DNA of 64,000 nt from Loxodes magnus. Lineage: Eukaryota; Ciliophora; Karyorelictea; Loxodida; Loxodidae. How positions within the stretch are numbered: the stretch's first letter is position 1; each line of letters starts with the position of its first letter. Of this stretch, positions 15,192 through 38,877 are shown in pieces. The stretch is taken from NCBI GenBank assembly GCA_946699065.1, contig CAMPDV010000007.1, positions 1,550,001 to 1,614,000 on the forward strand, written 5' to 3'. The position numbers and the translations under genes were made by a program. The notes under the pieces were generated by a model. That model saw nothing but the letters and a program-made list of their open reading frames with translations. It was not told where the DNA came from and ran no database searches.

Positions 15192-15280
15192 TATACTAGA
15201 ATATCAAACCATTTCAATCTTTAAGTTAGCTTTAAATCCTTTCTAATTTAAAGGTTTCACTACTTCATATATTACAAGAA

Positions 15281-17656
15281 ATGCAAGCCTAAAAATGCTA
15301 AACATGTGAACTTAATTTTCAGGATACAAACTAAACGCCTAGAAGAATGGAATGTGGATGTCTCACTTGTTAAAAGTGCTTGGATTCCTTTAATCTCATG
15401 TCTAATAATTAATTTTGTCCTAATCATAGTCAATTTAAAGCGAAAACCGTTGAAGATCTTGAAAAAATTAACCTTTTATAGCAAGGATCAGCGAGATCAT
15501 AAATGGATCTAGAAGAAATTTAAGTAACTTCGAAGCAATTGCACAATATATCAAAACTATTTTCTGAGAGATGCAATATTCATAATTTACCTGTTACGCT
15601 AATATGCTCATAAGACAATTAGTAATTATGTAAGTAATGTGCCGACAGTTCTCATAATGGACATTAGGTAACACTCTTAGAGGAAAAATTAAATAGCCTG
15701 AAGTAAGAAATAACTAAACAGTTACATATATTGAAGAAATCTTCCTGATTTTAGTTTAGATCTGACTTCTATAACTTATTACGAGATAACATTATAAAGC
15801 AAAATGGGATAATTAAAAGGATAGTCGAAAAAATCTAAGAAAATATCTTTTATTAAGTCAAAAAGTTTTGTTAAGAGTTCCTTAGTCGTAACTTAGTGCT
15901 ACTAGACCAATCTTAAAGATAAATACAGATAGAACTAATGAATATATAAAATAAGCATAGCCAAATATCTCTTTTAGAATAGTTATAAGAAAACACTTTA
16001 GAGAACTGTTAGTTTAAGAATTAGTAAGTGTAGCAGCTTGTAAATGTAATAGATAAATTATAATTAAACGAAAATGAATTTGTTTATGATATTTAAAACT
16101 AATCTCCTGAGTAAATATAAGCTACGGTCCTTGATAGGTTGTACTAAAGTGATATTTTTAAGGACCAGATCGAGTAAGCTTAAGAGGATTAAAATGATTA
16201 GTAGCAAATATTTGATAAAGAATTAAAAGAAGCATATGAAAAATTAGAGGATAGTAAGAGAAAAGCTAGTTAATTAGAAGAAGAAAAGAAAAGTTTGCTT
16301 AGTTTAGTTGAAGAATTTAAAAAAGAAAGCAGCGAATAATAAGTAATCTAAATGCTACTTTAGAAGAACCAAGAACTAACTTAGCAAGTTAACAAGGAAT
16401 AAGAAGAAAAAGATAAGCTGAGCTTTTAAATTTAAAGCCTTAATCAACAGATAGAATATCTTCAGTGTGAAAAAAATATCTTTGAAAACAACTAAGAGAA
16501 TTTTGAAGATAAACTATAAGAACTTAAAAACCAAATTTAACGACTCGAAAAAGAAAAATAGAATCTCCATCAATAAATAAGAAACCATAATTAAACTTAA
16601 AGTTCTTAAAGCATTAGACAAAGCATAGAAGGAAATTTAGCTTCTTCAATGTAGAATTTAAATTTGATAATGAAAGAGTCTCTAAACTTTAACTAACTAT
16701 CCTAAAGCTAAACTTTATAATAAAATAAAACAAAGATAGCAAACTAAAACGCCCAATAACTGATAAGAGGAAGACAACATAGCATACTTTCAGAATCAAT
16801 CGTACTATACCGCAGAATTAAATAAAACAGTGACATTCTCTAAGTAAGCTTATTATAAGATAAAGCTGCAATGTTCTACTCACAATTCCTATAAAATATA
16901 TAGACTATAGAAAATAACTATACAAGCACAATCTAAATAAGCAATAGCTAAATTATTTTGGTAGGAGGTTGTTAGAGATCATTTTAAGAAGGTAGCATAA
17001 TCTAAATTAATGATAATAAAGCAACCAAAGTTTCTAACTTATTAAATCCTAGAAAAACTGCTTCGCTAGCATTCAATAATAGAAATATTATCTATATCAT
17101 CGGAGGATAAAATGAGAACGGCTAAATGAGTGAATGTGAAAGCTTTAATATAAGTAATTTGGATAATTCTAATATAATGGAACACTAGTATAAGCTTATA
17201 TATCATGGAACATGTTTTGCTTATGATTATGTAATGACATTTGGAGGACAAATCTAAGAAAAGAATTCATATAATCCTAGAGATTATGTTTGTCTTTATG
17301 ATATAATAACCAATTAATGAATTTAAAATAACTCTATAAAACTACCTAAAGCAGCGATATAAGTAGCAGCAGTATATTCCCAAGAAGTAGAATCATTTTA
17401 TATATTTGATAGTAGTAATAAATTGAAGAACACATTTACATTTGACTGGAAGAGCTTTTCTAAAAACGGAGAAGCATTTCCACTTCAAAGTCCATTTTGA
17501 TATAATGGAATATACGAAAAGAGTTAAATTTATATGTATGGTTCAAAGGTTGATAAGTAAGAGTAGCTATATTATTACGACACAAAGATATCAAAAAATA
17601 GAAAATGGGAAGAAGTTTAGCTTATTGTAGAGTGAGAACAAGAGGAACTTTATTGA
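15281..17656 (+). CDS. RING/B-box/coiled-coil/Kelch protein (TRIM1)
   Basis: 791 residues. Residues 6-55 carry a RING-like set of Cys/His pairs (CQTC, CGC, CQKC, CPNH). Residues 94-135 form a B-box2 (CNIH, LICSQD, CKQC, SSHNGH). A long coiled coil of Gln/Glu/Lys heptads runs to about 500, and a Kelch-like region with repeated GG, including VGGC, IIGG and TFGG, covers about 540-780. This is the tripartite-motif plan of TRIM proteins, which are usually ubiquitin E3 ligases with a substrate-binding C-terminal domain. I ended it at TGA 17654-17656; an in-frame TGA at 17633 is a shorter option. Homology with TRIM2 shifts frame shortly after, which supports an end near here. No introns needed. Confidence 0.85.
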
Positions 17657-17944
17657 AATTCTAAATTATAAAGCTAATTGAAATAACTTAATGATTATAC
17701 TAAATATACTAAAAAGCTCTATATGCTTTGGCTACTTACTAAACTTTATACCTTATCTTTATAAAAATTTAATTACTAGACAGATAATTAAGAATAAATT
17801 GGTTCTAAATAAACTGAAAATAGAAGTTTCTAGCTTCTAGGTTAAATGTATAGAGTCATCTTGATTTAAAGTTTTGTATAAAAAATAACAATGAAGAATA
17901 AAATTTTTAAATTTGGCTAAATCAAAAAAAGCTTAACTTGTAAA

Positions 17945-19105
17945 AATAAGAAATTTCTTCTCTCACGCACTGTTTTAGTTATTACTCGTTTCTTATTACA
18001 ACTCTACAGTTTTGTCTTCTCCTAACTCAACCTATTAGTTACCTTTGCCTCAATCTACCTTATACGACTTTATTTCCTCTTCCTTTTTAACGCTTACCTA
18101 TTTACTTAGATTTCTCTTTTGCTTTATAGAGTTTATTTGTCTGTTGAAACTATATATATCAGGTCTTTTATAAGGCTCGTAACTAAAACATTACTTTAAC
18201 AAGTCTTCTAAATCAGCTTCCTTTCTTATTTCATCTGAAAATTAAGGGAACTTCCTATCAACACTAACATGCTTTATTATTTATTCAGCTGCTTATAAGC
18301 TTGGATATGGTAAGCTTTCGTTAAATATTTCTACAGCTACACAACCTAAAGCCCAAATATCGCTCTTCTAACTCACCTTGTAATTAAATTACTCAGGAGC
18401 CATCCATTAAAGCGACCCTTTCACATCTAAAGTAGAAGTTTTATCAGCTTCACTCAGTAAACCTAAATCAGCTATTTTGGGAGAATAATTTTCGTCAATA
18501 AGAATATTTTTGGATTTGATATCCCTATGAACTAGTTTTCTTTGATGAATAGCTTATACTCCTTCACTAATTTAACTCAGCAAGATTAGTTTATTATTGA
18601 ACTTTTCTTCTTTCGCTTGGTCTTTAAATAATCCTCCGCACTTAATTAAGTCGAACAAGCTTCCTTTAGGTTAATACTCTGTAAGATGACAAAACTTGTA
18701 GTTTCCTTCCTATGAAGTGTCTATGGCTACTCCTATAATTCTTACTACTCTCCTATTGTTAACACATAACAGACCATTACACTCACGATAGAAGTCTTCT
18801 ATCAGTTATTACTAACTAGTCTTGGCAATGAAGACTTTAAGAGCATAGAGTATTCCTTCTATGTTAATAGGATAAACAATGCCTTAGCTTCCTTGATCTA
18901 CAGGTTAGAGGTTAGATAAGAACTATTAACTAGGAATTAACTCTCGATAATCTCAGATACGAACTTAAGACCTTTAGTCTCTACCTGCTCCATTTTAGTA
19001 TAGGATTTATCAAATATCATCAACTCCTATTTTAACTTTAGCTTCAACTTCTTCCTTAAGTTTACCTATCTCTAGTTAAGGGTTCAGATTATAAGCTATA
19101 TTATA
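17945..19105 (-). repeat. inverted kinase block, copy 1
   Basis: About 1161 bases matching 33857-35017 in reverse orientation. In the stretches I compared I saw no difference until a few bases after the stop codons. It covers the C-terminal end of the TPR array, the linker and the whole kinase domain. Similarity drops abruptly at the inner edge inside the TPR region, so this is a gene-conversion or segmental-duplication tract and not general paralogy. Confidence 0.85.
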
Positions 19106-20803: not shown

Positions 20804-21573
20804 AATATTTTATATTATATTAATTCAATTAATCTGATATTTCAATCCTCATTTTATTACTATCTCTACTTACACTTTACTTATATTACTCTTTACTCTC
20901 TTTACTTTATTGAAATCTTTATTTAAGCCATTTAATATCAGCTTAATATGATTATATACTTTAGATTTTAAAGATAATAAATGCTCTTTTGTAACCATTA
21001 AAGACTATTACTGTTAATGCTAGTTACAAATACCTACTTGAATTTGATAGCTAATCTGCTTATTAATTAAAGGCTTTTTTATATTTTTGTTTCTGTTTTA
21101 AATAAAATTTATTTAGTTTCTAAGAGTAAATTTCAAATTATTAATTGCTATGTCACACTACATATGCACCACTACTATACATGAAACTTCTTATTTTACT
21201 AAATTGATTACTCTTAATAATTTTGCTTTTTGTTCTTTAAGTGTAATATGTGAGTATATACTTATATTAAGTTAATCAAACTTGTTTAAGCTAATATTTC
21301 ATTTATATATTAATAAAACTCTCCTTTTTTTCCTCTGAGTAGCTGAGATCATCTAACTGCTTATTTATTATTTTCCTATATTTAGAAAGTTATTTATGAC
21401 AAAAATTATAATTAAAAGATTATTAAAGCAATAGAGCTTATTTCTTTGATTAATACTTAAATTTTTATAAAGATAAGATATAAAGTTTTAGTAAATAGCC
21501 AAAGCATATAGAGCTTTTTAGTATATTTAGTATAATCATTAAGTTATTTCAATTAGCTTTATAATTTAGAATT
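20804..21573. other. intergenic spacer
   Basis: Between the TPR-kinase 1 start and the TRIM2 stop. The last 120 bases are homologous to the TRIM1 3' flank at about 17660-17780, so the TRIM duplication extends a little past the coding end. The remainder shows no gene. Confidence 0.5.
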
Positions 21574-23952
21574 TCAATAAAGTTCCTCTTGTTCTCACTC
21601 TACAAAAAGCTAAACTTCTTCCCATTTTCTATTTTTTGATATTTTTGTGTCGTAATAATATAGCTACTCTTACTTATCAACCTTTGAACCATACATAAAT
21701 ATTTAACTCTTTTCGTATATTCCATTATATCAAAATGGACTTTGAAGTGGAAATGCTTCTCCGTTTTTAGAAAAGCTCTTCCAATCAAATGTAAATGTAT
21801 TCTTCAATTTATTACTACTATCAAATATATAAATTGATTCTATCTCTTGTGCATATACTGCTGCTACCTATATTGTTGCTTTAGGTAGTTTTATAGAGTT
21901 ATTTTAAATTCATTAATTGGTTATTATATCATAAAGACAAACATAATCTCTAGGATTATATGAATTCTTTTCTTAGCTTTATCCTCCAAATGTCATTACA
22001 TAATCATAAGCTAAGCATATTCCATGATATATAAGCTTATACTAGTGCTCCATTATATTAGTACTATTTAAATTATCTATATTATAACTTTCACATTCAC
22101 TCATTTAGCCATTCTGATTTTACCCTCCAATAATATATATAAAATTTCTATTATTGTAGGCTAGCGATGTAAGTTTTCTAGGATTTAGTAAGCTAGACAT
22201 GTTTACGACTTTATTGTCCTAAATTTAGATAATATCATTTTATTAAAATTATTACTGAGAACCTCCTACCAAAATAATTTAGCTATTGCTTATTTAGATT
22301 GTGCTTGTATAGATATTTTCTATGGCCTATACGTCGGCTAGAATTTAAGAGTTGAGTATTGCAGTTTTATCTTGTAAATAGCATACTTAGAGAATGTCGC
22401 TATTTTATTTAACTCTGCGGTATAGTGCGATAGATTCTGAAAGTAAGCTATGCTATCTTCCTCTTATCAGTAACGGAGCATTTTAATTAGCTATTTTTGT
22501 TTTATTTTATTATAAACTAAGGCTTTAAGATAGTTAGTTTAAGTTTGCAGATTCTCTCAACACCTACTATAAGTTTTAAACTGAAGAGGTTACACTTACT
22601 CCGGCACTTTGTCTAACGTTTTTAGTATTTTAGATTTATTAAGCTTGATCTTGTATTTATTAAATGAGACTTTCTTTTTCTTTTTCTAGTTAAGAAGTTT
22701 AAGTTTTAAGTTCTTATAATTAAGTTTCTAATTATTCTTAGTTGCTTTCAAAGCTGTTTTTCTCAGTCTGAAGATGTTTTATCTGTTGATTAAGGTTCTA
22801 AATTTAAATGCTCATTTTATCTTTTTCTTCTTATTCCTTGTTTACTTGCTAAGTTAGTTCTTGGTTCTTCTAAAGAAGCATTTAGATAACTTGTTATTCG
22901 CTATTTTCTTTCTTAAATTCTTCAACTAAGCTAAGTAAATTTTTATTTTCTTCTTCTAGCTAGCTATTTTTTCTCTTGCTATCTTATAACTCTTCCAATG
23001 TTTTCTTTAAAGCTGTAATATAGACTTGAAACTTAGCGTTAAAGTCATCTTAGACGTACTAACTCTATTATTTAAAAAAGTCACTAAAGTATATTCTTTC
23101 AAGAATTTAAGTTTATAGCTCATCAGGATTTTATCTTTTAATATCATAAATTACGTTATCTTATTTCTCATCTATATTACTGAATATTTCTAAAAGCTGC
23201 TTTGCTTGCTTCATCTTATACTCACAATTCTCTAATGTTTTTTCAGGGTACTAGCTAATGAAAGATATTTACTGCTACTAATTTTATACTTTTATTAGTT
23301 CTAATTGTATTGACCTTTATGATCTATCAAGCAGAAATAAGTTGCGAACAATTTACTCTTAGCAAATCTTTTTAATTTAATAGATGAGCTGTTCTTAGAT
23401 TTAATTGATTAGATTCTTTATTATATTCTATTGATTTTTCAAGCTTTCTATTATTAAGTTGCAGTAGTCAGATTTAAGTTGAAATTTTACAGATTTCTTC
23501 AGCTGCTAGATTTCTTGATTTATTTCTTACTTTATAATGTTTATCCTTTCAGCTATGGGTATTACTTAGTGTCCAGTATGAGGGCTTCCATCACATTACT
23601 TGCAAATTCGCTAATTGTCTTATAAGCATATTAATGTAACTGGTAAATTATGAAGCTTACACTAATCAGAATTTAGTGTTTACATATTTTGTGAAATATC
23701 AAAAATAAGTTCAACAGTTCTTAGATCCATAGGCTATCTAGCTGACCCTTGCTATAAGAGATTAGCTGTTTCAAGATCATCAGATATTTTAGTTTAAAGT
23801 TAGCCATGATTTATACAAACTAAATTTTTATTTGTTTTACCAAAAGTAACCAAACACCTTTCACAAATGAGACATCCGCATTCTAATTTCTTTGGCGTTT
23901 AATTTGCTTGTCTGAAGTTAAGTTCGCATGATTAGCATTTTTCAGATTGCAT
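21574..23952 (-). CDS. RING/B-box/coiled-coil/Kelch protein (TRIM2)
   Basis: 792 residues, inverted paralogue of TRIM1 with the same plan: RING-like Cys pairs (CQSC, CGC, CERC), a B-box2 (CKLH, LICLQD, CKQC, PHTGH), a coiled coil and a Kelch region. By eye the Kelch end is about 97% identical to TRIM1 in DNA, the coiled coil somewhat less, and the RING end much less. Divergence therefore rises towards the N-terminus. TGA Trp codons in the Kelch part are conserved between copies. I chose TGA at 21576-21574 to match TRIM1. Confidence 0.85.
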
Positions 23953-24132
23953 TTTTATAATACTTGAAGAATAAAGCTTTTTAAACTAGACTTATTTGAA
24001 TTTTTAATAAAGCAGCATAATACTCTAATATTCTGATACGTATAGGCTATTTAGCTAGTTACTATATGTCTAAAATAGCTGCTAACTGTAAATGGTTACT
24101 ATATTATCTGCTGCCTTTAATAAGCTAAGACT

Positions 24133-25736
24133 ATGCTTAACACTTTCTAAGTAGAAAACAATAAGAAGATTAAGGAAAAGTTATAGCCTACATCACTATA
24201 TTCTAAATGGTGAAATTTAAGCTTTCTAAATACAGAAAGATAAAACTAATAGTAAAAGTGAATAAATCTTCTACCTTCATTGCTAAATTAAGACAAATAA
24301 GCTATCAGTGTTTATAGAGATAAATTTAGCTCTTAAATTTTGAAAAGAGACTTCTATAGATAAAGGATAAGAGGCTTGGGATTTAGCAAAAGCATAGAAC
24401 TACAAAAAAGACTTAAGCCTATTAAACTATTTAGTGATGCTTAATAAAAGAAATAATAATAAAGGATAAAAGTAATTAAGCCTATAATAAAAATAAACTA
24501 AGTTATAATTGGTAATCAAAAACAAAAGGAGTGTTATACTAAGATATTATAATTTCATAATCTAAGATAATCTAAAAATATCAACATAATATTAAATAAA
24601 GCCTTTTAAATTAATACATTCCAAACTTATAAAGATTAAAAGCTGATATAAGCATAAAATAATCTTTAGGATATTATAATAATATTATTATTTGATAAGT
24701 TAAAATGCTAATATAACTATATAGCTATAGGATTTTTAGAATGCTGAATATTATGATGATTAATTAAGATCAACTTTCTAAAATTGTAAAGGAAGAATAA
24801 ATAAAAAAGGTGCCTTTTAAAGATATTTTAGCTTATAAAAGCAATATAGTTATATTAGAAAGACAGAAGTAAAAAGATGCAGCTTTATTTATAAAATAAA
24901 CTAAAAGCTTAAGTCATTTAAAGATCATTGATAGTATTATTAAGTTTTAGATACTAAAATTAAATTACGGCTAAGTCTTATAAGCTTTCTTTTATTTTGG
25001 TCTACCGAGAATAAATGATAAAAAAAGTAAATATCTTAACACTTAGATAGAAAGAATTAAACATTTTAGAAAAGGATTTTAAGATTAAAGGAATGAAAGC
25101 AAAGAAGTACTAAAAAGGAGTGAAATTAAAGAAGCTAATTAACCTTTAATTATATAAACATTTATCTTATCACTTGCTAGCATATTTTTATACAATTTAG
25201 CTGATCTATAATTATAAAATTATATTAAATATAGCCTTAAATCTAGTAATAAAGCTAAGTAATCTTAAATTTCAATGATATCAGAATATTTTTGAAAATA
25301 TCTTAATAAGAAGAAATTAAAATGAAAAGAGAAGTAGCATAGTCTATAATACTGATTAAAATACATAATTAATGCAATAGATATCCTAAGGCTTTAAGCT
25401 TAAAAAAGGAATTAATTAAATCAAATAATGCAATTATTAATCATTAAGAAAGAGATATTAAGAAGTCTCAATTGTTTTAAGTAGTTAATGTTTAGCCATT
25501 TTATAATAACCATAATCAAATGAAAAATAGATAGCTTAAGATATCAATGAAAATAGATTGATAAAACGTAAAATCATAAATCCAGAAGTTTGATTAGGAG
25601 GAAACTTAATTTAAGTAAGCTATAGAATGTTTGAGATAAAATGAAAATACTTAAAAATTGATTTTTTAGATAAGTTGCTTAATTGTGATCAAAATAGCAA
25701 GCAAAAAATCAGTTAGGATTACATTTGATTATTTGA
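24133..25736 (+). CDS. unknown protein (gene Y), probably intron-containing
   Basis: Two protein-like frames follow each other. The first runs from ATG 24133 to about 24720 (TGA at 24745). The second has an ATG at 24753 and continues to TGA 25734-25736, with an earlier TGA at 25521 as another possible end. Total about 530 residues, rich in Lys, Gln, Ile and Leu, with no recognised domain. The frames could be joined by a 26- or 32-nt GT-AG intron starting near 24700, but neither is proven; two overlapping genes are possible. Its position, orientation and size beside TRIM2 mirror gene X beside TRIM1. It runs into the 3' end of the gene A' remnant. Confidence 0.5.
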
Positions 25737-26521
25737 TTTTGATAAGAAGATATCTAATAAGAGGATATTCTTCGATATTTAAAAGTTAAATATTTCTTTT
25801 ATTTTTGTGGATAAATAAATAATTCCTAGGTTCGAACCATAAAGAGACATCTAATAAGTTCGACAGAAAATTTTAGTTTAAAGTTTCATATATATTAAAG
25901 CAAGCATTTAGGCTTTATTATCTTTATTAATTTAATTAAAATCACAAGTATGTTATATTTTTTACTTTTCATCTTCTTCAACTGTTTCTAAATTATCAAG
26001 CATGTTATCAAACTAAGCGTCAAATACACATTCCTTTTTTATGAAAGATGGTTCAATATTCTATTTGGTTTGCTCTCCATCGCTATCTACTTTTTTAATT
26101 TCATCTTCTTCTTTATTTATCTAATCTGCAATTCCTCCTAAAAATCTATCGAAGTCATTGCTTCTTTCCTGTTGATCCAATTTTAGAGGACCAAATCCTG
26201 TATCGATTTATTTTTTAGCTGAAAAAATTTTATCTAAGTAATTTTTTTGAGTCTAATTGTTGAGTAAAATACAATTATCTTAAAATGAAGGCTTCTCAGT
26301 CTTTTTTAATATATCCTCTATCTTCTTTTCTTTTTGCTATACTTCATTAGCAATATCAAGTATATTTTTGTTAAGATCTTCATTTATTTTTTTCTTTTTC
26401 TTCTTATTAGGATCTTCTTTTGGCTCCTGTTAGTTAGTTACTTGATCTACTAATTTTAGTTTTATTTTTCAATCTTAGGAATTATGGGCTGTCTTAGTTC
26501 AGGTTCATAAATTTCAAGCAT
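25689..26521 (-). pseudogene. truncated, rearranged copy of gene A (gene A')
   Basis: Matches the C-terminal two thirds of gene A (from about base 12756) in inverted orientation. The N-terminal third is missing. Its place is taken by an ATG-CTT from a duplicated 5' flank shared with the gene at 38.9 kb, fused in frame to the Glu-Ile-Tyr-Glu of gene A. Soon after, one base is missing relative to gene A near 26445, shifting the frame for the rest. The copy is otherwise well conserved, so the loss is recent. Expression as a short novel peptide cannot be excluded. Confidence 0.75.
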
Positions 26522-26769
26522 ATATCTTATTTTTATTAAAGGTCTCTTATTCTCATAGCTATCCTTATATTTATTGGGGTTGCTTTAAGGAGTTTATACT
26601 CTTTCTATACACTTTCCTGGTAATAGCTTTTATTAGACTTTTTGAGGCTAGAATAAGTTTTACTTTATCTCCTTAGTTCTATTAACCGAGTGTTCTGGAT
26701 TTAATTAACTAAGCTATTTAAATTAACCTAGACTCCACTTTTCTAGGATTGGCTTTTCTTCTCTTATAA
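26522..26769 (-). repeat. duplicated 5' flank of the 38.9-kb gene
   Basis: About 248 bases matching 38615-38880 in reverse, with roughly 11 differences by eye (about 95% identity). It ends at the ATG-CTT start of gene A'. It is the outer continuation of the 2.88-kb palindrome, separated from it by two retroposon insertions. Confidence 0.8.
26754..26769. repeat. target-site duplication of retroposon 1, left
   Basis: TTTTCTTCTCTTATAA, identical to 27651-27666. The uninterrupted site survives once in the other palindrome arm at about 38625-38640. Confidence 0.85.
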
Positions 26770-27650
26770 TAATAATAATGAAATTAAAATGTTCAGCAGT
26801 GCCAATCTGGACACCGTTTAAAATAAGTTGTTTATCAGCAACACTTCTCATCATTCTTGATCTAATGAAATTATCTTCACTAAGGTCTTCTCAGTTTCTT
26901 TGATTTCTTGTTCAAAAGGTACTTCACATCATTTTCTTCTGTAAATATCTCCATGCTAGTTGCAATAGAGTCTCTAGTATTTTTCTTATTCTTTACGCCA
27001 AAATTTTTTCTTGAAATTCTAAAATTTTTAGCAATTCTTGTACAAATGTCACTTACTCTTACAGTAGTAGCATTTCTTCCTTACTTATTTGATTGGTTTT
27101 TGATTTATAACCTCTTTTTATTCTATCTCCATCTAATTTGTCTAATTAGTTATGTTTGTGCTAATATTCTTTTGCTTAATAAACTCCAACTCTTGTTTTT
27201 ATACTATATTTTCAAGCCTTGCTGTTTCTTATCTATGTTCAGTTTAAATGTTCCAATATGCTTGGAGTTCCTTTTCTTAGTTAATAATTCTAATCTCTAA
27301 GTTATCTTATCCAAACGATAATAAGTTTCTTAGTTCTTAATTTTCCTACTTAAGCACTTTAATCTCTTCCTAGAGATTGGATATTTCAAATACTAACTGT
27401 AAAATATTTATTTCCTTTTTAATTATCTTTGATGTAAGTTCTTTTCCTGTTATTATATTAGATTCCTTTCTTTTTATTACTTTAGGAGGTGCTTATTATA
27501 GTTATTAGGCTCTTTATTAGTTTTGTAAGTGGGGAGAAGAAGACTCTTGATACTTTTTTTATGCCTGCTTTTTCTCTAGAGCTTTTTTCACTTCTTTGCT
27601 CAAGAAAAAGCCGGGAACGTGATTTTAAGACTCCATTTAATTTTTTTAAT
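26770..27650 (-). mobile_element. ORF1-only non-LTR retroposon 1
   Basis: An 881-bp insertion read on the minus strand: about 14 bases of leader, one open frame, a short 3' region and a (TTA)n simple-repeat tail, flanked by a 16-bp target-site duplication. No LTRs, terminal inverted repeats or reverse transcriptase are present. Tail plus target-site duplication is the signature of target-primed reverse transcription. The arrangement resembles half-LINE (HAL1-like) elements that carry only the first LINE ORF; a partner LINE elsewhere would have to mobilise it. It looks whole. Confidence 0.75.
26851..27636 (-). CDS. LINE ORF1-like coiled-coil, CCHC zinc-knuckle protein
   Basis: 261 residues ending in tandem TGA TGA. 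The first 60 residues are basic and Pro/Ser/Gln-containing. A coiled coil occupies about 75-180. A zinc knuckle with Cys-x2-Cys-x4-His-x4-Cys spacing (CYYC, then WH, then NC) lies at about 195-210. A second conserved YCN...G-x-IY motif follows at about 230. Coiled coil plus CCHC knuckles is typical of LINE ORF1 nucleic-acid chaperones, but also of Gag proteins. The LINE reading is preferred because of the tail and target-site duplication. The frame is unbroken, implying a young insertion. Confidence 0.75.
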
Positions 27651-27666
27651 TTTTCTTCTCTTATAA
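27651..27666. repeat. target-site duplication of retroposon 1, right
   Basis: Second copy of the 16-bp duplication; it continues into the original palindrome sequence up to the next insertion. Confidence 0.85.
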
Positions 27667-27679
27667 GGCATTAAAATAG

Positions 27680-27694
27680 CTTTATCTCTAAGTA
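27680..27694. repeat. target-site duplication of retroposon 2, left
   Basis: CTTTATCTCTAAGTA, repeated at 28670-28684. The single uninterrupted copy is at about 38601-38615 in the other arm. Confidence 0.85.
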
Positions 27695-28669
27695 ATAATA
27701 ATAATAATATTAATTTTAAGTTTTCCGTTTTAGGGATTTCCAACCCCGTCAAGAATACAGCAGTTCATGCTCCTTGTTGTTAAAATAAAAGTTCGGGTCA
27801 CCCAATTTTAGCAAGATTGGAAACTCGGATTTTTCCAGGTTTTCCCTCCTTTAACTTGCCTTGGTTCCATTTTAATCTTGTATATTGAACCATCCGGGTT
27901 GCAATACATTCTTTTCATTCTTGCTTCTTCTTTTTTCTTCTTTTGTTTTTCTTTTATCCAATAGTTTCTTTATTTCTATTAGAATTTCTAACACTTCCGA
28001 TAAAAATGTCATACGCTTCCACAGTAGAAACATTTTTTTTTTATTTTGAATTATTTTCCTTGATTTGTTTGCTCTTTCTAGGCTTCAATTTCCATTTTTA
28101 TAGCTCCAGTTTCGCTTTACTTTTTCTTAAAAGTTTATAATTTCTCTTCTACTTTTCCGAGTCTGTTATCCAGTTCTGTCTGTTTCTAAAGCTAATTTTA
28201 GGATTCGTTAGTCTGACTTTGTGAGATATTCCAAAAGGCGTTAAGATCTCTTTCCTAGGACATGGTCTTGACTCAATTCCTTAGGCTAGATCTAGCTTTG
28301 CCATCAGCATATCATTATCCTTCTTCAATCTCTTGACCTCTTCCTGGAGGTTCAGTACCACTTTGATGAGCTACTCCATGCTCATCTGGCCAGAAGGGTT
28401 GAATTCTGATACCTCCTGGTGGAGAACAGACTTCATCTGTTTCCTCGGTTTCTCGCTTGAGGTTGGAGTTTCCGTGTGTATATTCTTCAAGGTTGGCTTT
28501 CGTTCGTTTTGTTAGATTCCAAGTTGTTAGTTCATTGTTGGTTAAGGTTGTGACAGAGAAGATTGCTAAGATTATTAAGACTTGGCTTCTTGCTTCTTCT
28601 CTTCCTTTTTGGCTTAGGAAGAGGTGGTATAGAAGCCTGAATTGAAACCTTCAACCATTTTTTTTATTC
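27695..28669 (-). mobile_element. ORF1-only non-LTR retroposon 2, decayed
   Basis: A 975-bp insertion with the same plan as retroposon 1: about 11-base leader, ATG at 28658, a basic Gln/Ser-rich N-terminus, a coiled coil near residues 100-135, a CCHC knuckle (CFYC, WH, KC), a YCN...G-x-IY motif, then a (TTA)n tail, all between 15-bp direct repeats. It is clearly the same family as retroposon 1 but diverged, noticeably richer in GC and different in codon choice from neighbouring genes. The coding region appears interrupted about once between the coiled coil and the knuckle. Confidence 0.7.
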
Positions 28670-28684
28670 CTTTATCTCTAAGTA
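28670..28684. repeat. target-site duplication of retroposon 2, right
   Basis: Second copy of the 15-bp duplication; the 2.88-kb palindrome arm begins here. Confidence 0.85.
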
Positions 28685-30305
28685 CTAGCTAAATTTGATA
28701 AGCCTTTAAGAAAGGAAGAATCAGGCCGATTGTTAGTATGAGTATGAATATTCTAAATAAGGTGGTTAAATTTTTTAATCTTATTGGTATTGGTTTTAGG
28801 TAGATTTAAGATAGATTTCTATATATAATCAGTATGCTAATGCATATTAACTATGCAAGGGAACTTCCTTTTCTTCTTTAAAAGCTCCTACCATCTATTA
28901 GCTTCCTACATTTTTATTTCTTTATTTTTGTACTAATTTAGGGGAAGAAATAATCCATTGAATTTCAAGGTAGAAAAGCTATGAAAAATTAAGAAAATAG
29001 AAATATGAAAAGAGGGTTAGGAATGTAAGGATTATATCTAGGAGTTAGAGTCTTTTAGTTTAATCCGTTTTAATCTAGAAGGTACACACAAACTGAAGCA
29101 TATATAAGCTTCCTTAAATTAAGGATTTTAAAGTAAGAGCAATTAGTATAATTACATAGCTAATCTTGCTTAAAATAAATAATCCTTATTAGAGATCTAA
29201 ATTACATTATAGAGGGTACTATAATAAAGACTAAAACTATAACCATATATAACAAAAAAAGGGACTTAGATTAATTAAAAGGCTAGTATTTAAAATGCTT
29301 ACCTCCTTAAACTTATATACCTAAATTTTAATCCTCAAGCATTATATTCTAATTAGATTAAAAAGGTTATTTATACCTAATTATAATCTACTTTAGGTAA
29401 ATAATACTTAAGACTTTTTAATGGAGTTAGATGTGTCAAGCTTGATGTTTTAAATGGTATAATAGTAACATATGGATTAATTAAATCTTTTTAGCTAAAC
29501 TATTTAATGCGAATCATTTAGTAATATTATTCTAATGCTTTAGATATTATGAGATATATTGCTCTATTTTTATGCTATTGAAAGTAAAAAAATAGTATGA
29601 GAAATCTAAAATTTCACATATTATCCTCATGGATTGATATAGCCTTAAACTGGATGGGGATTTGTGGTTAAATAATTATAGTTAATCATTCAGTTCTAAA
29701 CAGACTCCCTATTACATAATCCTTTAAGAAGGAAATGCTTTATATAAATGATATCTCTTAGTTAAACCTTATCTTATTACTATCACTAATTGAAACTATA
29801 TTGATTTGGTATTGAGAAATTAACTAAGGTAAAGTATGGTTAATTATTATAAGTTAATATCTAGAAGACAGTTTTAATCAAGTAATCATATTAGGAATAG
29901 ATTTTAATTTCATCAAAACTAGGATAAAGAAAATAGAGCTGATATTTTGAAAGAAGGTATTAATATCTCACTTTACTTCCTTATTAGCTTGAGTTATTCT
30001 AAAATAATTAAAGTCTCTTGCTTATTCAAATAATAAATACTAGGAAATAAAATATCAAGCACTTCTAACTAAATATAATGATAATGATGCATCATTAGTT
30101 AGTTTCTTTTTAAATGATGTATTTAATTAAAATTAACGAGTCTTAGTTATATAGATAGCTGTTAATGTACGCATATCTTTTTAAGGTACTGTATTTAATG
30201 TCTTAACTTTTTCCTTTTAGTCTAGGTATTTTTATTTCCATTAAATTTACTAAAATAGACATTTAGTTATACAGTTAACTTAATTAAGCTACCAAAATTC
30301 ATTTC

Positions 30306-31424
30306 TCACTTATTACTTATATCAAAACTATCTTGGGCTTAGTTATTCTTGCCTGCATTTTACAGAGCTAAAATTTTATTTTATTAAGCTTCTGCATTAT
30401 TGGGATCCAGCTCAATAGCTTTATTATAGCACTAGATTGCTTCTTGATATCTGCCTAATCTATTTAAGGCAAGTCCTTTCTTATTATAGTAAGAAGCGTC
30501 GTTTGGATTTAGCCTTATAGCTAAGTTATAAAACTCTAATTGCTCTTCATATTTGCTTTGCTTATTTAAAGCAAGCTCTATTCTTTTATAAGCTTCGTCA
30601 TATGAAGGGTTAAACTTAATAGCTTAGTTCAAGCACTAAATTTCTTCTTCTTCTCTGCCCAGAATCTTCAGAATATCTCCCTTGTTAACATAGGCTATAA
30701 TCAGATAAGGATCTATATTAATAGCCTTGTCTAAGCATTCTATAGCTTCATTATGCTTGCCTTGGCTACTTAAAGCGTCTCCTTTATTATTTCAGGCAAT
30801 AGCATGATTAGGATTTAACTAAAGAGCTAAGTTATAACAGTCTACTGCTTCTTCATATCTATTTAAACTTTTCAATGCAGCTCCTTTACTACAATGAGCA
30901 TCAACTAGATTTGGATCTAATTTTATAGCATTGTTCAAACTTTCAATTGCCTCTTCATACTTACCAATCTTATAAAAGGCAAGGCCTTTGTTACAATGAG
31001 CAGTTGCAAGATTAGGTTCGAGACTAATAGCTTCACTATAGCATTTAATAGCTTCTTCATAGTTTCCCAAAAAGTTATAAGAAAGTCCTTTATTACAGTA
31101 AGCTGACGCTATAGCAGGATCTAGCTTAATAGATTTATTCAGAACTTCTATAGCCTCATCATAAAAGCCTAGATTATTAAGAACATCTCCTTTGTTACAG
31201 TATGCAATACTATTGTTAGGATCTATTTAAAGAGCTATATCATAGCACTTAATTGATTGCTCATGCAAGTTTAAGTTTTTTAAGGCAGCTCCTTTGAAGA
31301 TGTAAGCATTAGCAAGTTAGGAATTATTTTCTATAGCTAAATTGAAGTTCTCAATAGCCTAATGATAGTTTCCTTAGTAATAAAGCTATTATCCTTCTAT
31401 ATAATAAGAGTTTTAATCCTGCAT
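30306..31424 (-). CDS. TPR-repeat protein, palindrome copy a
   Basis: 372 residues made almost entirely of about nine tetratricopeptide repeats of 34 residues (pattern N-A-x-x-Y-x-NKG ... Y-x-EAI-x-C/S-Y-x-x-AI-x-L-D/N-P-N). TPR arrays are protein-binding scaffolds; no catalytic domain is attached. Gln codons in the array are mostly TAA/TAG, and the final codon TGA is also the mirror-image stop of copy b. An Asn-Asn-Lys motif inside the array has TGA for Trp. Identical to copy b in the palindrome. Confidence 0.9.
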
Positions 31425-31550
31425 TTATTTAATATTTACCTAAATCAGCTTAAAGCTTAGTACTTTATAGTTTATTTAATTGCTAAAGTTAGAAGTCGCT
31501 ATACTTTAGTATTACAAAGCATAATTAACTTGCTATATCCATAAGATTCT

Positions 31551-32059
31551 TCTATGTGAAGCTTATTTAAGTTTACCTTATCTAGCTTTTATCAGATTTA
31601 TACAGTTTCTAAATATTTAAGCAATTCATTATATAGTTATTGCTTTAGCTCTATCAAGCAAGTACACTTATTTGCATTATAGTTTCTAAACTTAAGCCAG
31701 AAAGATTTTAGTGTTATTATAGAACGATAAGACTTAATAGGTTATAAGGTAGGGCTAATTAGCAAATGGTTATTGAGAATTAGTAGTGTAATTGATTGAG
31801 TTTTGGTTGGTATAAAGAAAGGTGAATAAGATGGTGATACTATTGGCTTAAGAATAGTAGGTAATTAGCTTAGTTTTGCTTTTTATACTATAATTAAGAT
31901 ATTTATCTTAGCAATAAGTTATAACTAAGATTGTACCTTTAAGAGGTTAGAAGCTTATAACTATAGTTACTTGAGCTAATAAAGCTTAAATGGATTATAC
32001 AGTTTAGCTAAGTAGCTAAGCGTTTGAGAAGTAAAAAGTAAATAGCCTTTTAAATAATA
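31551..32059. other. loop spacer upstream of TPR-kinase 2
   Basis: Unique AT-rich sequence between the left arm and TPR-kinase 2. Presumably holds its promoter. No coding frame supported. Confidence 0.5.
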
Positions 32060-34999
32060 ATGGGCTGCGTTTAGACTAATAAAAGTAAAAGCCACTAAGA
32101 TATTATTATCGATTAGGAGATTCATAAATATGACCAAATTATTTAGAGAGATCCTATAAACTTCAATGCTTGATTCAAGTTCGGAATTTATCTTAGCTAA
32201 ATACAGAAGTTTGAAGAGGCAATTAAATGCTTTGACGTTGCTATTAAGCTTAGTCCTTAAAATAATGAAGTTTATATTTATAAAGGAAACTCGCTTATGT
32301 CTTTAAGTTAATTCGAAGAAGCAAACGAAGTATTTAGTAAGATAATAAAGGAAAACCCTAAATTTATTTAAGCTTATTGTAGTAAAGGAGTTTCTCTTCT
32401 AAGGCTATCAAAGCATGAAGAAGCAATTGAATATTTCGACTATGCTATTTAGCATGACTCTAAGAATTATAAAGCTCATAGACAAAAAGGTCTAGCACTT
32501 TACATTTTAAAACGCTATACAGAAGCATTAGAAAGCATCAATGCAGCAATTAGCCTAAATCCTAGCTATTTCTTCTCTTATCTTAATAAGTGCTTAGTTC
32601 TTAATAAGCTATTATAGTTTGAGGAAGCTAATAAAGACAGATAGAAATGTCTTTAGCTCAAACCAGATTATAATGAGATATATGAAGAGGGATAATAGTT
32701 TTTTAGCTTAAATGAGTATGAAGATACTGTATAATATTTAAGCATCGTTACTTAAATCTGTCCTTAGTTTGCTGAAGGCTGAGCACTTAAAGGATAAGCA
32801 CTCTATTTGTTAGATAAGAAACAAGAAACAATTGAATGCTGAAATAAAGCTATTTAAATTGACCCTTAAAGATATGACTTCTATCACCATAAAGCAAATG
32901 CTTGCCAACTATCTGGAGATTATCAATAATCACTATTATGCTATAATGAGGCTATTAATCTTAATCCTTAAGAACCATCACTCTATTTTCATAAAGGAAG
33001 GCTATTTATGAAACTAAATTAGTAAGAAGAAGCAATTTTATGTTTTGATTAAGCTTTGGAACTTAATCCTTAAATGCTTGAAGTCTGGAATAGTAAAGGA
33101 AGGACTTATGCAGATCTAAAATAGGACGAAAAAGCAATGGATTGTTTTTCCAAGGTTCTTGAGTTAGATCCTTATGATATTTAAGCGAATTAGTCAAAAG
33201 GAGCTTATTTTCAAATTATAGGAGAATATGAAGAAGCAATTTGATATTATAATAAGTTGCTTTAGATAAACCCTACAGATACTAATATTTGGTGCTTTAA
33301 AGGAAAATCTCATTTTGAATTAAGTTAACTCGAAGAAGCAATTGAATGCCATAATAAGATAATTCAACTTAACCCTTATTTTGACTTAATAAACTTCTCT
33401 AAAGGAGTTTGTCTGTAACTATTAGGTAGGAATGAAGAGGCAATTAAGGAATTCGATATTGCTATTCAAATAGATGTAAATGAATGTTTAGCTTATAGGC
33501 AAAAAGGAATTTCCCTTTATATTTTAGAAAAATATGAAGAAGCAATAGAATACTTTGATCTAGCTATAATGATAAATCCTGATCGCTTTATTTTTTATAT
33601 TGATAAGAGCTTCGCTAATTAAAAGCTATAAAAGACACAAGAAGCTAACTTGAATCTATAGATTGCTTTAGAATGTAATCCTTAATACTAAGTCATATTT
33701 TGCTAAGGATAACTTTTCTTATAAATGAAAAAATATCCAGATGCAATCAATTACTTAGACCTAGCCATCCAATTAAAACCTGATTTTGCTAATGCATGAT
33801 TTACTAAAGGACTAGCTTTAGCTAAATTAGATAAAAAATAAGAAGCAATTGAATGCTATAATATAGCTTATAATCTGAACCCTTAACTAGAGATAGGTAA
33901 ACTTAAGGAAGAAGTTGAAGCTAAAGTTAAAATAGGAGTTGATGATATTTGATAAATCCTATACTAAAATGGAGCAGGTAGAGACTAAAGGTCTTAAGTT
34001 CGTATCTGAGATTATCGAGAGTTAATTCCTAGTTAATAGTTCTTATCTAACCTCTAACCTGTAGATCAAGGAAGCTAAGGCATTGTTTATCCTATTAACA
34101 TAGAAGGAATACTCTATGCTCTTAAAGTCTTCATTGCCAAGACTAGTTAGTAATAACTGATAGAAGACTTCTATCGTGAGTGTAATGGTCTGTTATGTGT
34201 TAACAATAGGAGAGTAGTAAGAATTATAGGAGTAGCCATAGACACTTCATAGGAAGGAAACTACAAGTTTTGTCATCTTACAGAGTATTAACCTAAAGGA
34301 AGCTTGTTCGACTTAATTAAGTGCGGAGGATTATTTAAAGACCAAGCGAAAGAAGAAAAGTTCAATAATAAACTAATCTTGCTGAGTTAAATTAGTGAAG
34401 GAGTATAAGCTATTCATCAAAGAAAACTAGTTCATAGGGATATCAAATCCAAAAATATTCTTATTGACGAAAATTATTCTCCCAAAATAGCTGATTTAGG
34501 TTTACTGAGTGAAGCTGATAAAACTTCTACTTTAGATGTGAAAGGGTCGCTTTAATGGATGGCTCCTGAGTAATTTAATTACAAGGTGAGTTAGAAGAGC
34601 GATATTTGAGCTTTAGGTTGTGTAGCTGTAGAAATATTTAACGAAAGCTTACCATATCCAAGCTTATAAGCAGCTGAATAAATAATAAAGCATGTTAGTG
34701 TTGATAGGAAGTTCCCTTAATTTTCAGATGAAATAAGAAAGGAAGCTGATTTAGAAGACTTGTTAAAGTAATGTTTTAGTTACGAGCCTTATAAAAGACC
34801 TGATATATATAGTTTCAACAGACAAATAAACTCTATAAAGCAAAAGAGAAATCTAAGTAAATAGGTAAGCGTTAAAAAGGAAGAGGAAATAAAGTCGTAT
34901 AAGGTAGATTGAGGCAAAGGTAACTAATAGGTTGAGTTAGGAGAAGACAAAACTGTAGAGTTGTAATAAGAAACGAGTAATAACTAAAACAGTGCGTGA
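32060..34999 (+). CDS. TPR-repeat protein kinase (TPR-kinase 2)
   Basis: 979 residues in a single frame. Starts MGCVQTNK, again suited to myristoyl plus palmitoyl anchoring. About 17-18 TPR repeats cover residues 30-600 and differ strongly from those of TPR-kinase 1. From about residue 600 onwards the protein is the same as TPR-kinase 1: linker, Gly loop GSQGIV, ALK, VHRDIKSKN, DLG, MAPEQ and DIWALGC. Trp codons within the TPRs are often TGA. Ends Asn-Ser-Ala then TGA at 34997-34999. The gene fills most of the palindrome loop. Confidence 0.92.
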
Positions 35000-35017
35000 G
35001 AGAAGAACTTTCTTATT
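33857..35017 (+). repeat. inverted kinase block, copy 2
   Basis: Partner of 17945-19105. The match begins inside the last TPR and ends a few bases past the TGA, so it covers exactly the kinase end of the gene. Confidence 0.85.
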
Positions 35018-35734
35018 AAACTATTTTCAATAGATTAAATTAAATTACAATTGAAGTAATTTAAATATAAATAAATAATAAAAACAAACATTTAATTTTA
35101 TAAGTTATGATATTAGTTAATTATAACATTTATATATTTAAAAATAAGAAATTATTTTTCTAGCTTTAATTCATTTTAATTTAAATAATATTAGCAAGCA
35201 TTTTATAGTTTTCATCTACATATTATTAAGATAAAATAAAGAGATCTAAATTATTTACTGAGGTATAATTATTAAAATGTTTTATTCTTTTTACTGTATT
35301 AGAGTTAAATTAAATTTCTTTTTCTATAAATTACTTTATTTTACATTTTGTTTTCTTTTTCATAAATTTAAATTTTAACTAGTTATTTGTAAAGTAGATT
35401 TTTAGTTCGTTTCTTAAAATTCTTATAACAAAAAATAATATTTTTTGCTGCAAAATAGACTTGGAAGTATTGAATCACATAAAAACTTTATCTGCTTATT
35501 GATAGGCACAAAATATTAAATTTATAATCATAAAATTGCAAATAATTAGGCCCTAAGTTCAGTTTAAAACGACTGTGTTGCACAAATTCACTAAAATAAG
35601 TATAATCAAAATTTATAAGAAAATCTCAAATTTCTTTAATTGAATCTGAAGATTTCTTCATTTTTCATAAATTTGTATTTTCTCACATTCTTATAAAAAA
35701 TTATTAACCTTTCATCTATCATCTATTAAAAATA
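35018..35734. other. loop spacer downstream of TPR-kinase 2
   Basis: Very AT-rich, unique sequence between the kinase stop and the right palindrome arm. No gene or RNA recognised. Confidence 0.5.
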
Positions 35735-38615
35735 AGAATCTTATGGATATAGCAAGTTAATTATGCTTTGTAATACTAAAGTATAGCGACTTCTAACTTT
35801 AGCAATTAAATAAACTATAAAGTACTAAGCTTTAAGCTGATTTAGGTAAATATTAAATAAATGCAGGATTAAAACTCTTATTATATAGAAGGATAATAGC
35901 TTTATTACTAAGGAAACTATCATTAGGCTATTGAGAACTTCAATTTAGCTATAGAAAATAATTCCTAACTTGCTAATGCTTACATCTTCAAAGGAGCTGC
36001 CTTAAAAAACTTAAACTTGCATGAGCAATCAATTAAGTGCTATGATATAGCTCTTTAAATAGATCCTAACAATAGTATTGCATACTGTAACAAAGGAGAT
36101 GTTCTTAATAATCTAGGCTTTTATGATGAGGCTATAGAAGTTCTGAATAAATCTATTAAGCTAGATCCTGCTATAGCGTCAGCTTACTGTAATAAAGGAC
36201 TTTCTTATAACTTTTTGGGAAACTATGAAGAAGCTATTAAATGCTATAGTGAAGCTATTAGTCTCGAACCTAATCTTGCAACTGCTCATTGTAACAAAGG
36301 CCTTGCCTTTTATAAGATTGGTAAGTATGAAGAGGCAATTGAAAGTTTGAACAATGCTATAAAATTAGATCCAAATCTAGTTGATGCTCATTGTAGTAAA
36401 GGAGCTGCATTGAAAAGTTTAAATAGATATGAAGAAGCAGTAGACTGTTATAACTTAGCTCTTTAGTTAAATCCTAATCATGCTATTGCCTGAAATAATA
36501 AAGGAGACGCTTTAAGTAGCCAAGGCAAGCATAATGAAGCTATAGAATGCTTAGACAAGGCTATTAATATAGATCCTTATCTGATTATAGCCTATGTTAA
36601 CAAGGGAGATATTCTGAAGATTCTGGGCAGAGAAGAAGAAGAAATTTAGTGCTTGAACTAAGCTATTAAGTTTAACCCTTCATATGACGAAGCTTATAAA
36701 AGAATAGAGCTTGCTTTAAATAAGCAAAGCAAATATGAAGAGCAATTAGAGTTTTATAACTTAGCTATAAGGCTAAATCCAAACGACGCTTCTTACTATA
36801 ATAAGAAAGGACTTGCCTTAAATAGATTAGGCAGATATCAAGAAGCAATCTAGTGCTATAATAAAGCTATTGAGCTGGATCCCAATAATGCAGAAGCTTA
36901 ATAAAATAAAATTTTAGCTCTGTAAAATGCAGGCAAGAATAACTAAGCCCAAGATAGTTTTGATATAAGTAATAAGTGAGAAATGAATTTTGGTAGCTTA
37001 ATTAAGTTAACTGTATAACTAAATGTCTATTTTAGTAAATTTAATGGAAATAAAAATACCTAGATTAAAAGGAAAAAGTTAAGACATTAAATACAGTACC
37101 TTAAAAAGATATGCGTACATTAACAGCTATCTATATAACTAAGACTCGTTAATTTTAATTAAATACATCATTTAAAAAGAAACTAACTAATGATGCATCA
37201 TTATCATTATATTTAGTTAGAAGTGCTTGATATTTTATTTCCTAGTATTTATTATTTGAATAAGCAAGAGACTTTAATTATTTTAGAATAACTCAAGCTA
37301 ATAAGGAAGTAAAGTGAGATATTAATACCTTCTTTCAAAATATCAGCTCTATTTTCTTTATCCTAGTTTTGATGAAATTAAAATCTATTCCTAATATGAT
37401 TACTTGATTAAAACTGTCTTCTAGATATTAACTTATAATAATTAACCATACTTTACCTTAGTTAATTTCTCAATACCAAATCAATATAGTTTCAATTAGT
37501 GATAGTAATAAGATAAGGTTTAACTAAGAGATATCATTTATATAAAGCATTTCCTTCTTAAAGGATTATGTAATAGGGAGTCTGTTTAGAACTGAATGAT
37601 TAACTATAATTATTTAACCACAAATCCCCATCCAGTTTAAGGCTATATCAATCCATGAGGATAATATGTGAAATTTTAGATTTCTCATACTATTTTTTTA
37701 CTTTCAATAGCATAAAAATAGAGCAATATATCTCATAATATCTAAAGCATTAGAATAATATTACTAAATGATTCGCATTAAATAGTTTAGCTAAAAAGAT
37801 TTAATTAATCCATATGTTACTATTATACCATTTAAAACATCAAGCTTGACACATCTAACTCCATTAAAAAGTCTTAAGTATTATTTACCTAAAGTAGATT
37901 ATAATTAGGTATAAATAACCTTTTTAATCTAATTAGAATATAATGCTTGAGGATTAAAATTTAGGTATATAAGTTTAAGGAGGTAAGCATTTTAAATACT
38001 AGCCTTTTAATTAATCTAAGTCCCTTTTTTTGTTATATATGGTTATAGTTTTAGTCTTTATTATAGTACCCTCTATAATGTAATTTAGATCTCTAATAAG
38101 GATTATTTATTTTAAGCAAGATTAGCTATGTAATTATACTAATTGCTCTTACTTTAAAATCCTTAATTTAAGGAAGCTTATATATGCTTCAGTTTGTGTG
38201 TACCTTCTAGATTAAAACGGATTAAACTAAAAGACTCTAACTCCTAGATATAATCCTTACATTCCTAACCCTCTTTTCATATTTCTATTTTCTTAATTTT
38301 TCATAGCTTTTCTACCTTGAAATTCAATGGATTATTTCTTCCCCTAAATTAGTACAAAAATAAAGAAATAAAAATGTAGGAAGCTAATAGATGGTAGGAG
38401 CTTTTAAAGAAGAAAAGGAAGTTCCCTTGCATAGTTAATATGCATTAGCATACTGATTATATATAGAAATCTATCTTAAATCTACCTAAAACCAATACCA
38501 ATAAGATTAAAAAATTTAACCACCTTATTTAGAATATTCATACTCATACTAACAATCGGCCTGATTCTTCCTTTCTTAAAGGCTTATCAAATTTAGCTAG
38601 TACTTAGAGATAAAG
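35735..38615. repeat. 2.88-kb palindrome, right arm
   Basis: Inverted partner of 28670-31550. Contains TPR gene copy b; 36980-38615 shows no supportable gene. Similarity continues outward, at about 95%, across 38615-38880, where the left arm is interrupted by two retroposons. Confidence 0.92.
35861..36979 (+). CDS. TPR-repeat protein, palindrome copy b
   Basis: 372 residues, same sequence as copy a: about nine TPRs, no other domain, TGA stop at 36977-36979. Start ATG 35861 is the only Met before the first repeat. The upstream 126 bases lie inside the palindrome, so both copies share a promoter sequence. Products are predicted to be identical, so dosage and not specialisation is the likely effect. 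Confidence 0.9.
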
Positions 38616-38877
38616 CTATTTTAACGCCTTATAAGAGAAGAAAAGCCATTCCTAAAAAAGTGGAATCTAGGCTAATTTAAATAGCTTAGTTATTTAAATC
38701 CAGAACACTCGGTTAGTAGAACTAAGGAGATAAAGTAAAAACCTATTCTAGCCTCAAAAAGTCTAGTAAAAGCTATTACCAGGAAAGTGCATAGAAAGAG
38801 TATAAACTCCTTAAAGCAACCCTAATAAATATAAGGATAGCTATGAGAATAAGAGACCTTTAATAAAAATAAGATAC

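Follow-up and report, generated by a model that had tools for sequence, protein, structure and literature searches.

Two short elements, E1 and E2, lie close together on one strand of a 64-kb window (C7:1550001-1614000, the whole stretch of DNA that was analysed). A first-pass annotation had described them as two diverged members of one kind of retroposon, each framed by a target-site duplication (TSD), and both the coordinates and the duplications are confirmed (table 1). The window itself holds an empty site. Alignment of an inverted paralog with the joined flanks shows that what the paralog lacks is exactly each element together with one of its two repeats. E1 and E2 are true insertions with TSDs, because this in-window site has neither. 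The last three bases of the left E1 duplication may equally be counted as tail. Terminal repeats beyond the TSDs are found at neither element, and the long terminal repeats (LTRs) that characterize LTR elements are thus absent. A search of the 64-kb window for reverse transcriptase (RT) with LINE-A, a LINE of the same genome described below, gave no match at E 1e-3.

Table 1. Features of the two insertions and of the empty site (window coordinates).
Feature	Position	Strand	Description and basis
Element E1	26770-27650	minus	ORF1-only retroposon, 881 bp; 16-bp TSD, empty site, other copies
E1 TSD, left copy	26754-26769		TTTTCTTCTCTTATAA; exact 16 nt; empty site
E1 TSD, right copy	27651-27666		repeat comparison; empty site
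E1 3' tail	26770-26779	minus	(TTA)n as read on minus strand; sequence
E1 reading frame	26851-27636	minus	261 residues in window copy (TAA/TAG = Q, TGA = W); end TGATGA
E1 CCHC knuckle	27031-27072	minus	CYYCKSKWHLYKNC, W = TGA; Cys/His columns across 15 aligned proteins
E1 predicted coiled coil	27142-27399	minus	long helix; approximate, placed via E1/E2 alignment on E2 model
Element E2	27695-28669	minus	ORF1-only retroposon, second family, 975 bp; 15-nt TSD, empty site, other copies
E2 TSD, left copy	27680-27694		CTTTATCTCTAAGTA; repeat comparison; empty site
E2 TSD, right copy	28670-28684		repeat comparison; empty site
E2 coding region	27750-28658	minus	303-codon family frame with CCHC knuckle CFYCGSVWHFYRKC
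Paralogous empty site	38598-38887	minus	same flanks, one copy per TSD, neither E1 nor E2

Several inverted duplications are present in this window. Positions 28670-31551 and 35734-38615 are inverted copies of each other that differ at 1 of 2882 bases. Just outside E2 and E1 the paralogs are ~95% identical, as if a recent conversion tract had ended at the E2 insertion. Further pairs are 17945-19105 with 33857-35017 (99.8% identity), 15242-17792 with 21437-23990 (79%) and 12756-13553 with 25724-26515 (94%).

Copies, ends and flanks in the genome

The genome searched comprises 705,730,643 bases in 7843 contigs. For E1, the best 40 of 908 first-look candidates include the window copy, and the other 39 are 95-96% identical to it; for E2, the best 40 of 4432 candidates again include the window copy, with the other 39 at 93-96% identity. 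All of these span nearly the whole element. As only best-scoring copies are included, both sets favour full-length and closely similar copies. The 28 E1 and 28 E2 copies nearest the window copies were retrieved, and independence was judged from the upstream flanks. This leaves 17 E1 and 21 E2 insertions; the rest are segmental or assembly duplicates. The independent copies share the same two ends, a single open reading frame (ORF) for a protein with a long helix and a CCHC knuckle, and a (TTA)n tail, and no RT occurs within any of them. A protein-level search scored 144 of 2287 candidates, of which a minority were retrieved. A third family, E3, has a copy beside an E2 copy at locus L013, follows the same plan with the same tail, and ends in AATTTATC(C/T)T(ATT)n. 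At another locus (L088, ~263-1170) a LINE-A is inserted in the (TTA)n tail of a related E3 copy, with TTATTATTATT on both sides.

Flanks of ~475-500 nt on each side were compared between independent copies. They are unrelated: only 2 of 692 comparisons gave similar pairs, neither of them at an element edge, so that no copy read belongs to a longer shared element. Of the 38 copies, 7 have LINE-protein matches (E 1e-5) in their flanks (L074, L065, L080, L002, L050, L012, L051). Four of these seven LINE fragments lie on the same strand as the E copy, and none is common to different copies. The nearest is in L074, where it starts ~100 nt downstream of E2, past the tail and a 16-nt duplication. These fragments are read as neighbours. 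In the sequences read, neither continuation into RT nor LTRs turned up, and other copies with the same ends are plentiful, as the first-pass annotation had supposed.

TSDs with a score of at least 12 accompany 31 of the 38 independent insertions (E1 15/17, E2 16/21), with a median length of 15. Mismatched pairs of upstream and downstream flanks reach that score in 9 of 400 cases (2.25%), the best null score being 15. Among the 34 copies with clearer duplications (16 E1, 18 E2; 4 of the 38 omitted), the duplication starts A|AT in 16 as judged by eye, at a boundary blurred by the ATT tail. The leader from TSD to ATGG is A-rich and short in both families: 4-21 nt in E1 (median 10.5, 14 copies with clear TSD) and 4-15 nt in E2 (median 9, 16 copies with clear TSD). 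Variable-length TSDs, a 3' tail and no terminal repeats are the marks of non-LTR retroposons that insert by target-primed reverse transcription (TPRT). Head-to-tail telomeric arrays of the HeT-A type were not encountered among the copies read, which are dispersed with independent flanks and TSDs. Unlike a SINE, which has no protein and a head derived from a Pol III RNA, the elements have a conserved ORF and no Rfam match at gathering score; two snoRNA matches fell below that threshold. A conserved 3' hairpin was considered and rejected, since those of E1, E2 and E3 are no better than shuffled sequence (z -1.17, -0.33 and -0.48).

The ends were counted genome-wide with 43-base patterns allowing up to 3 mismatches; controls with reversed patterns gave zero in all six counts. 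E1 has 589 5' and 553 3' ends and E2 has 894 and 932, against 349 and 1720 for LINE-A in the same test. The ratios are approximate, as duplicated assembly stretches are included and ends were counted singly rather than paired per copy; the two ends may also mutate at different rates, and the LINE-A 3' pattern may match sister families as well. By this comparison 5' truncation of E1 and E2 looks rare, which agrees with the first-pass view, based on the short leaders, that the elements are full-length rather than 5'-truncated. Truncation at the 5' end is usual in non-LTR retroposons and is not strictly defining. It is this usual trait of TPRT that E1 and E2 seem to lack; TPRT is compatible with rare truncation because the E elements are short.

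The encoded protein and selection on it

In the E1 family frame, TGA stands at codon 195, which is the knuckle tryptophan, and again at 235 and 251. The E2 family frame, 303 codons long, has one internal TGA at codon 216, the corresponding knuckle tryptophan. Glutamine is written as TAA or TAG at 26 of 33 codons in E1 and at 21 of 40 in E2. In the available parts of the Loxodes genome paper, the macronuclear code of Loxodes magnus reads TAA/TAG as glutamine and TGA as tryptophan or stop, in an assembly of 706 Mbp (PMC11441545). Relative to the family, 14 of the 17 independent E1 copies and 8 of the 21 E2 copies have a coding region free of gaps and length changes. The E2 window copy is not among the intact ones, its frame being broken by two single-base deletions. 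The E1 and E2 proteins share one architecture at 40% amino-acid identity and belong to separate families.

The earlier description of a coiled coil and a CCHC knuckle in one ORF holds. Across the 15 aligned proteins the Cys/His columns of the knuckle are invariant or nearly so, and downstream of the knuckle lie a helix and a YCNxxGxIY motif. An AlphaFold model of an E2 protein, built from a 15-row alignment (mean pLDDT 60, pTM 0.26), predicts one helix at 94-198, with pLDDT mostly 84-95 and dropping at the helix end, then the knuckle, a helix at 220-252 and disordered ends. Neither window protein matched a Pfam family at the cut-off, and zf-CCHC was absent from the list; PDB sequences gave only a weak coiled-coil match, to RasGRP1 (E 0.04). 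The E protein is presumed to bind RNA.

Changes among copies were classed as private (one copy) or shared (two or more independent copies). Private changes are neutral, with 74 non-synonymous (N) to 24 synonymous (S) in E1 (omega 1.10) and 179 N to 75 S in E2 (omega 1.00). Shared changes stand at 11 N to 11 S in E1 (omega 0.36, p=0.026) and 44 N to 29 S in E2 (omega 0.64, p=0.07), p-values that are modest. A recount in which TGG-TGA changes were synonymous and the last codon was dropped gave private omegas of 1.01 (E1) and 1.00 (E2), with shared omegas of 0.36 and 0.64. In the two wrong frames, shared changes gave omegas of 1.25 and 0.98 for E1 and 1.12 and 0.84 for E2. Pooling both classes gave 0.82 (E1) and 0.90 (E2) in the true frame, and 0.89 and 1.33 (E1) and 1.14 and 0.95 (E2) in the wrong ones. 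The within-family signal is confined to the shared class, because the pooled true-frame omega is not clearly below the wrong frames.

Between families, the N-terminal 128 codons of E2 and E3 give dN 0.243, dS 0.976 and omega 0.25 (bootstrap 0.11-0.43). E3 is here a single decayed copy in two frames, and this omega is therefore raised, not lowered. In the C-terminal part of the E2/E3 comparison dN is 0.41, and between E1 and E2 it is 0.59; dS is saturated in both. These substitution patterns show constraint on the protein in propagating lineages while individual copies drift. The first-pass annotation had taken the intact 261-residue frame of E1 as a sign of selection. Selection on the protein is supported; the intact frame is peculiar to the window copy and not a feature of the family, whose frame has TGA at the two late codons given above.

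Relation to the LINEs of the genome

LINE-A (L017-L046) is represented by 29 loci that are 96-99% identical to L017 across the aligned part. The distance between its 5' and 3' patterns is ~5.5 kb, as judged by eye in two copies. A gag region with a CCHC motif lies upstream of an endonuclease-reverse transcriptase (EN-RT), and a 3' hairpin (z -3.7) is followed by (TTTA)n. A TSD score of at least 12 was reached in 0 of 4 LINE-A copies (8, 11, 11, 9). Its 5' end resembles that of two E families. The first 60 nt match E3 with a score of 50, against 27 for the best of 1000 shuffles, and the first 40 nt match E2 with 29 (24 in shuffles); against E1 there is no match at the nucleotide level. An N-terminal peptide, FKxGFYTTS, is common to E2, E3 and LINE-A. 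In this block, which was picked post hoc, synonymous differences among the three occur at 5 of the 8 shared codons with the residues kept, a pattern that favours conservation of the peptide over that of a promoter. From the shared ATG, the LINE-A frame enters the gag region in L088, L089 and L090 (in L090 up to a later break), although not in L087, where the gag frame continues to the start of the endonuclease. Pieced together from these different copies, each broken somewhere, the shared segment would be the N-terminus of the LINE-A polyprotein. Beyond ~20 N-terminal residues and a weak match at the knuckle (hhalign probability 9.8, E 0.0033), the LINE-A gag does not align to E proteins.

The 3' ends are different. 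The tail is (TTTA)n in LINE-A and in one of the two LINE-B copies, and LINE-C has a T-run, whereas the E families end in (TTA)n. BLAST of E1 and E2 against the retrieved LINE-B, LINE-C and LINE-D stretches gave no match. LINE-A, LINE-B and LINE-C were rejected as the source of the E 3' end on these grounds, and the LINE with matching 3' sequence that the first-pass annotation proposed to look for was not found among these three. LINE-D is numerous, with 144 of 9082 candidates scored. In L050, a LINE-D-like copy that is 70% identical to LINE-D in DNA and interrupted by an E1 insertion ends in AAATTTTATCTT(ATT)4, close to the E3 end; the likeness is short and AT-rich and may be fortuitous. Among the RT-related elements seen, this copy alone has an (ATT)n tail, and the LINE-D of L096 ends differently. 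In L050 (minus strand) the E1 copy lies antisense in the 3' region of the LINE-D-like copy.

Other RT-related sequences were also seen. On one strand of contigs C5131 and C20 of the assembly, RT matches are spaced 2532 bases apart (2504 in part of C5131), which reflects either a LINE segment repeated in tandem or an artefact of assembly. Matches to the endonuclease family PF03372 fall into several groups by open-frame length (~147, 211 and 245 residues), and some of these may be further LINE families. Comparison by eye of the PF03372 match list with the E lists revealed no adjacent pair.

Related systems and mode of propagation

The mammalian HAL1 ('half-L1'), reportedly described by Bao and Jurka in 2010, is said to have ORF1 without ORF2, a coiled coil and presumed mobilization in trans by a LINE. 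HAL1 derives from L1. The E elements resemble it in all three of those respects; they differ in their CCHC knuckle, in their deeply split families and in having no 3' end in common with LINE-A, LINE-B or LINE-C. The half-LINE label given by the first-pass annotation is apt as regards the single ORF1; homology with the LINE-A ORF1 stops short of its full length, and derivation from a LINE by loss of ORF2, as in HAL1, is at most a possible origin. In the ingi/RIME and L1Tc/NARTc pairs of trypanosomes, short and long elements share a 5' end that acts as promoter and ribozyme, and the short element is non-coding. E elements and LINE-A likewise pair a short and a long element through their 5' ends, but the shared end encodes a peptide.

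HeT-A of Drosophila telomeres is a non-autonomous element that lacks pol (PMC4467039). It is comparable as a Gag-only non-LTR element dependent on the RT of another; it is telomeric, while the E copies read are dispersed with TSDs. The closest parallel comes from a ciliate. The accessible part of a study of Paramecium tetraurelia describes seven 'solo ORF1' elements, A-G, with a zinc finger like that of local LINE ORF1s and likely mobilized in trans (PMC5405496). The E elements correspond to these: they too come from a ciliate, carry only ORF1 with a zinc knuckle and no RT, and presumably move in trans. A short 3' repeat, (TAAA)n, is found in 3 of the 7 Paramecium elements; the E families have (TTA)n. 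In Paramecium the protein ends with the zinc finger, which is similar to those of local LINE ORF1s (PMC5405496), whereas in the E proteins the helix and YCNxxGxIY come after the knuckle, which is at best weakly like that of LINE-A by hhalign. TSDs, an empty site and selection are demonstrated for the E elements and are undiscussed in the accessible part of the Paramecium report. The Loxodes genome paper, as far as available, records two complete LINE families of 5-6 kb and makes no mention of an ORF1-only element, within open-licence literature (PMC11441545). The first-pass statement that such elements had not been described in karyorelicts stands to that extent, and the E elements are a well-documented case in Loxodes; the kind is already reported in ciliates by the Paramecium solo-ORF1 elements.

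Most likely, E1, E2 and E3 are non-autonomous non-LTR retroposons that have one ORF, for an ORF1/Gag-like protein, and borrow the enzyme of a LINE. Their propagation may be pictured as follows. (i) The RNA would start a few bases before the ATG and be translated. (ii) The product would comprise a disordered N-terminus, a coiled coil of ~100 residues and a CCHC knuckle. (iii) This protein would coat mainly its own RNA (cis preference). (iv) The particle would recruit, in trans, the EN-RT of a LINE from the same genome. (v) TPRT would begin on the (UUA)n tail, yielding a mostly full-length copy and a duplication of ~15 bp. A further reading is put forward tentatively: the E elements may be an old, self-perpetuating Gag-only lineage under purifying selection via cis preference, with FKxGFYTTS as a docking or localization tag for the LINE enzyme. 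As E1 and E2 are so diverged, with synonymous sites saturated, such a lineage would have gone without RT for long enough to form at least three families.

For the protein to be visible to selection, either it must serve mostly its own RNA or the master must be a host gene. In the latter case the masters would be host coiled-coil/knuckle genes, the three families processed pseudogenes, and the selection seen in shared changes that on the host gene. A host master would also give purifying selection in the propagating lineage with drifting copies, and the elements do start almost at the ATG. The retroposon reading is favoured because all three families end in (TTA)n rather than poly(A), because E1 and E2 each have hundreds of ends and because an N-terminal peptide is common to E elements and a LINE; conserved host genes are an improbable source. 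Passive relics, internally deleted LINE copies with a functionless ORF1 that move SINE-like through their 3' ends, would account for the neutral evolution of individual copies, and the 5' end common to LINE-A and E elements shows exchange or descent. Synonymous change far exceeds replacement change between families, however, and the E1/E2 architecture has been kept despite the divergence, which makes functionless relics very improbable.

An origin from LINE-D overlaps with the retroposon reading and concerns source and partner: the E protein would be LINE-D's own ORF1, with the LINE-D 3' end kept. The abundance of LINE-D and the nearness of the L050 end to that of E3 speak for it, yet a single such tail has been seen, the L096 copy ends otherwise and the similarity is short and AT-rich. 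This origin is judged unlikely, and the divergence of the E families is deep, so that derivation from LINE-D would be old.

If the assembly represents the macronucleus of Loxodes magnus, the elements reside in the somatic genome. An element that parasitizes another parasite and yet keeps a protein of its own puts cis preference to a natural test. For such a test the genome provides hundreds of copies, an empty site inside the window and the contrast between neutral private and constrained shared changes. The peptide shared with LINE-A is a concrete candidate for where the ORF1 protein meets the borrowed enzyme.
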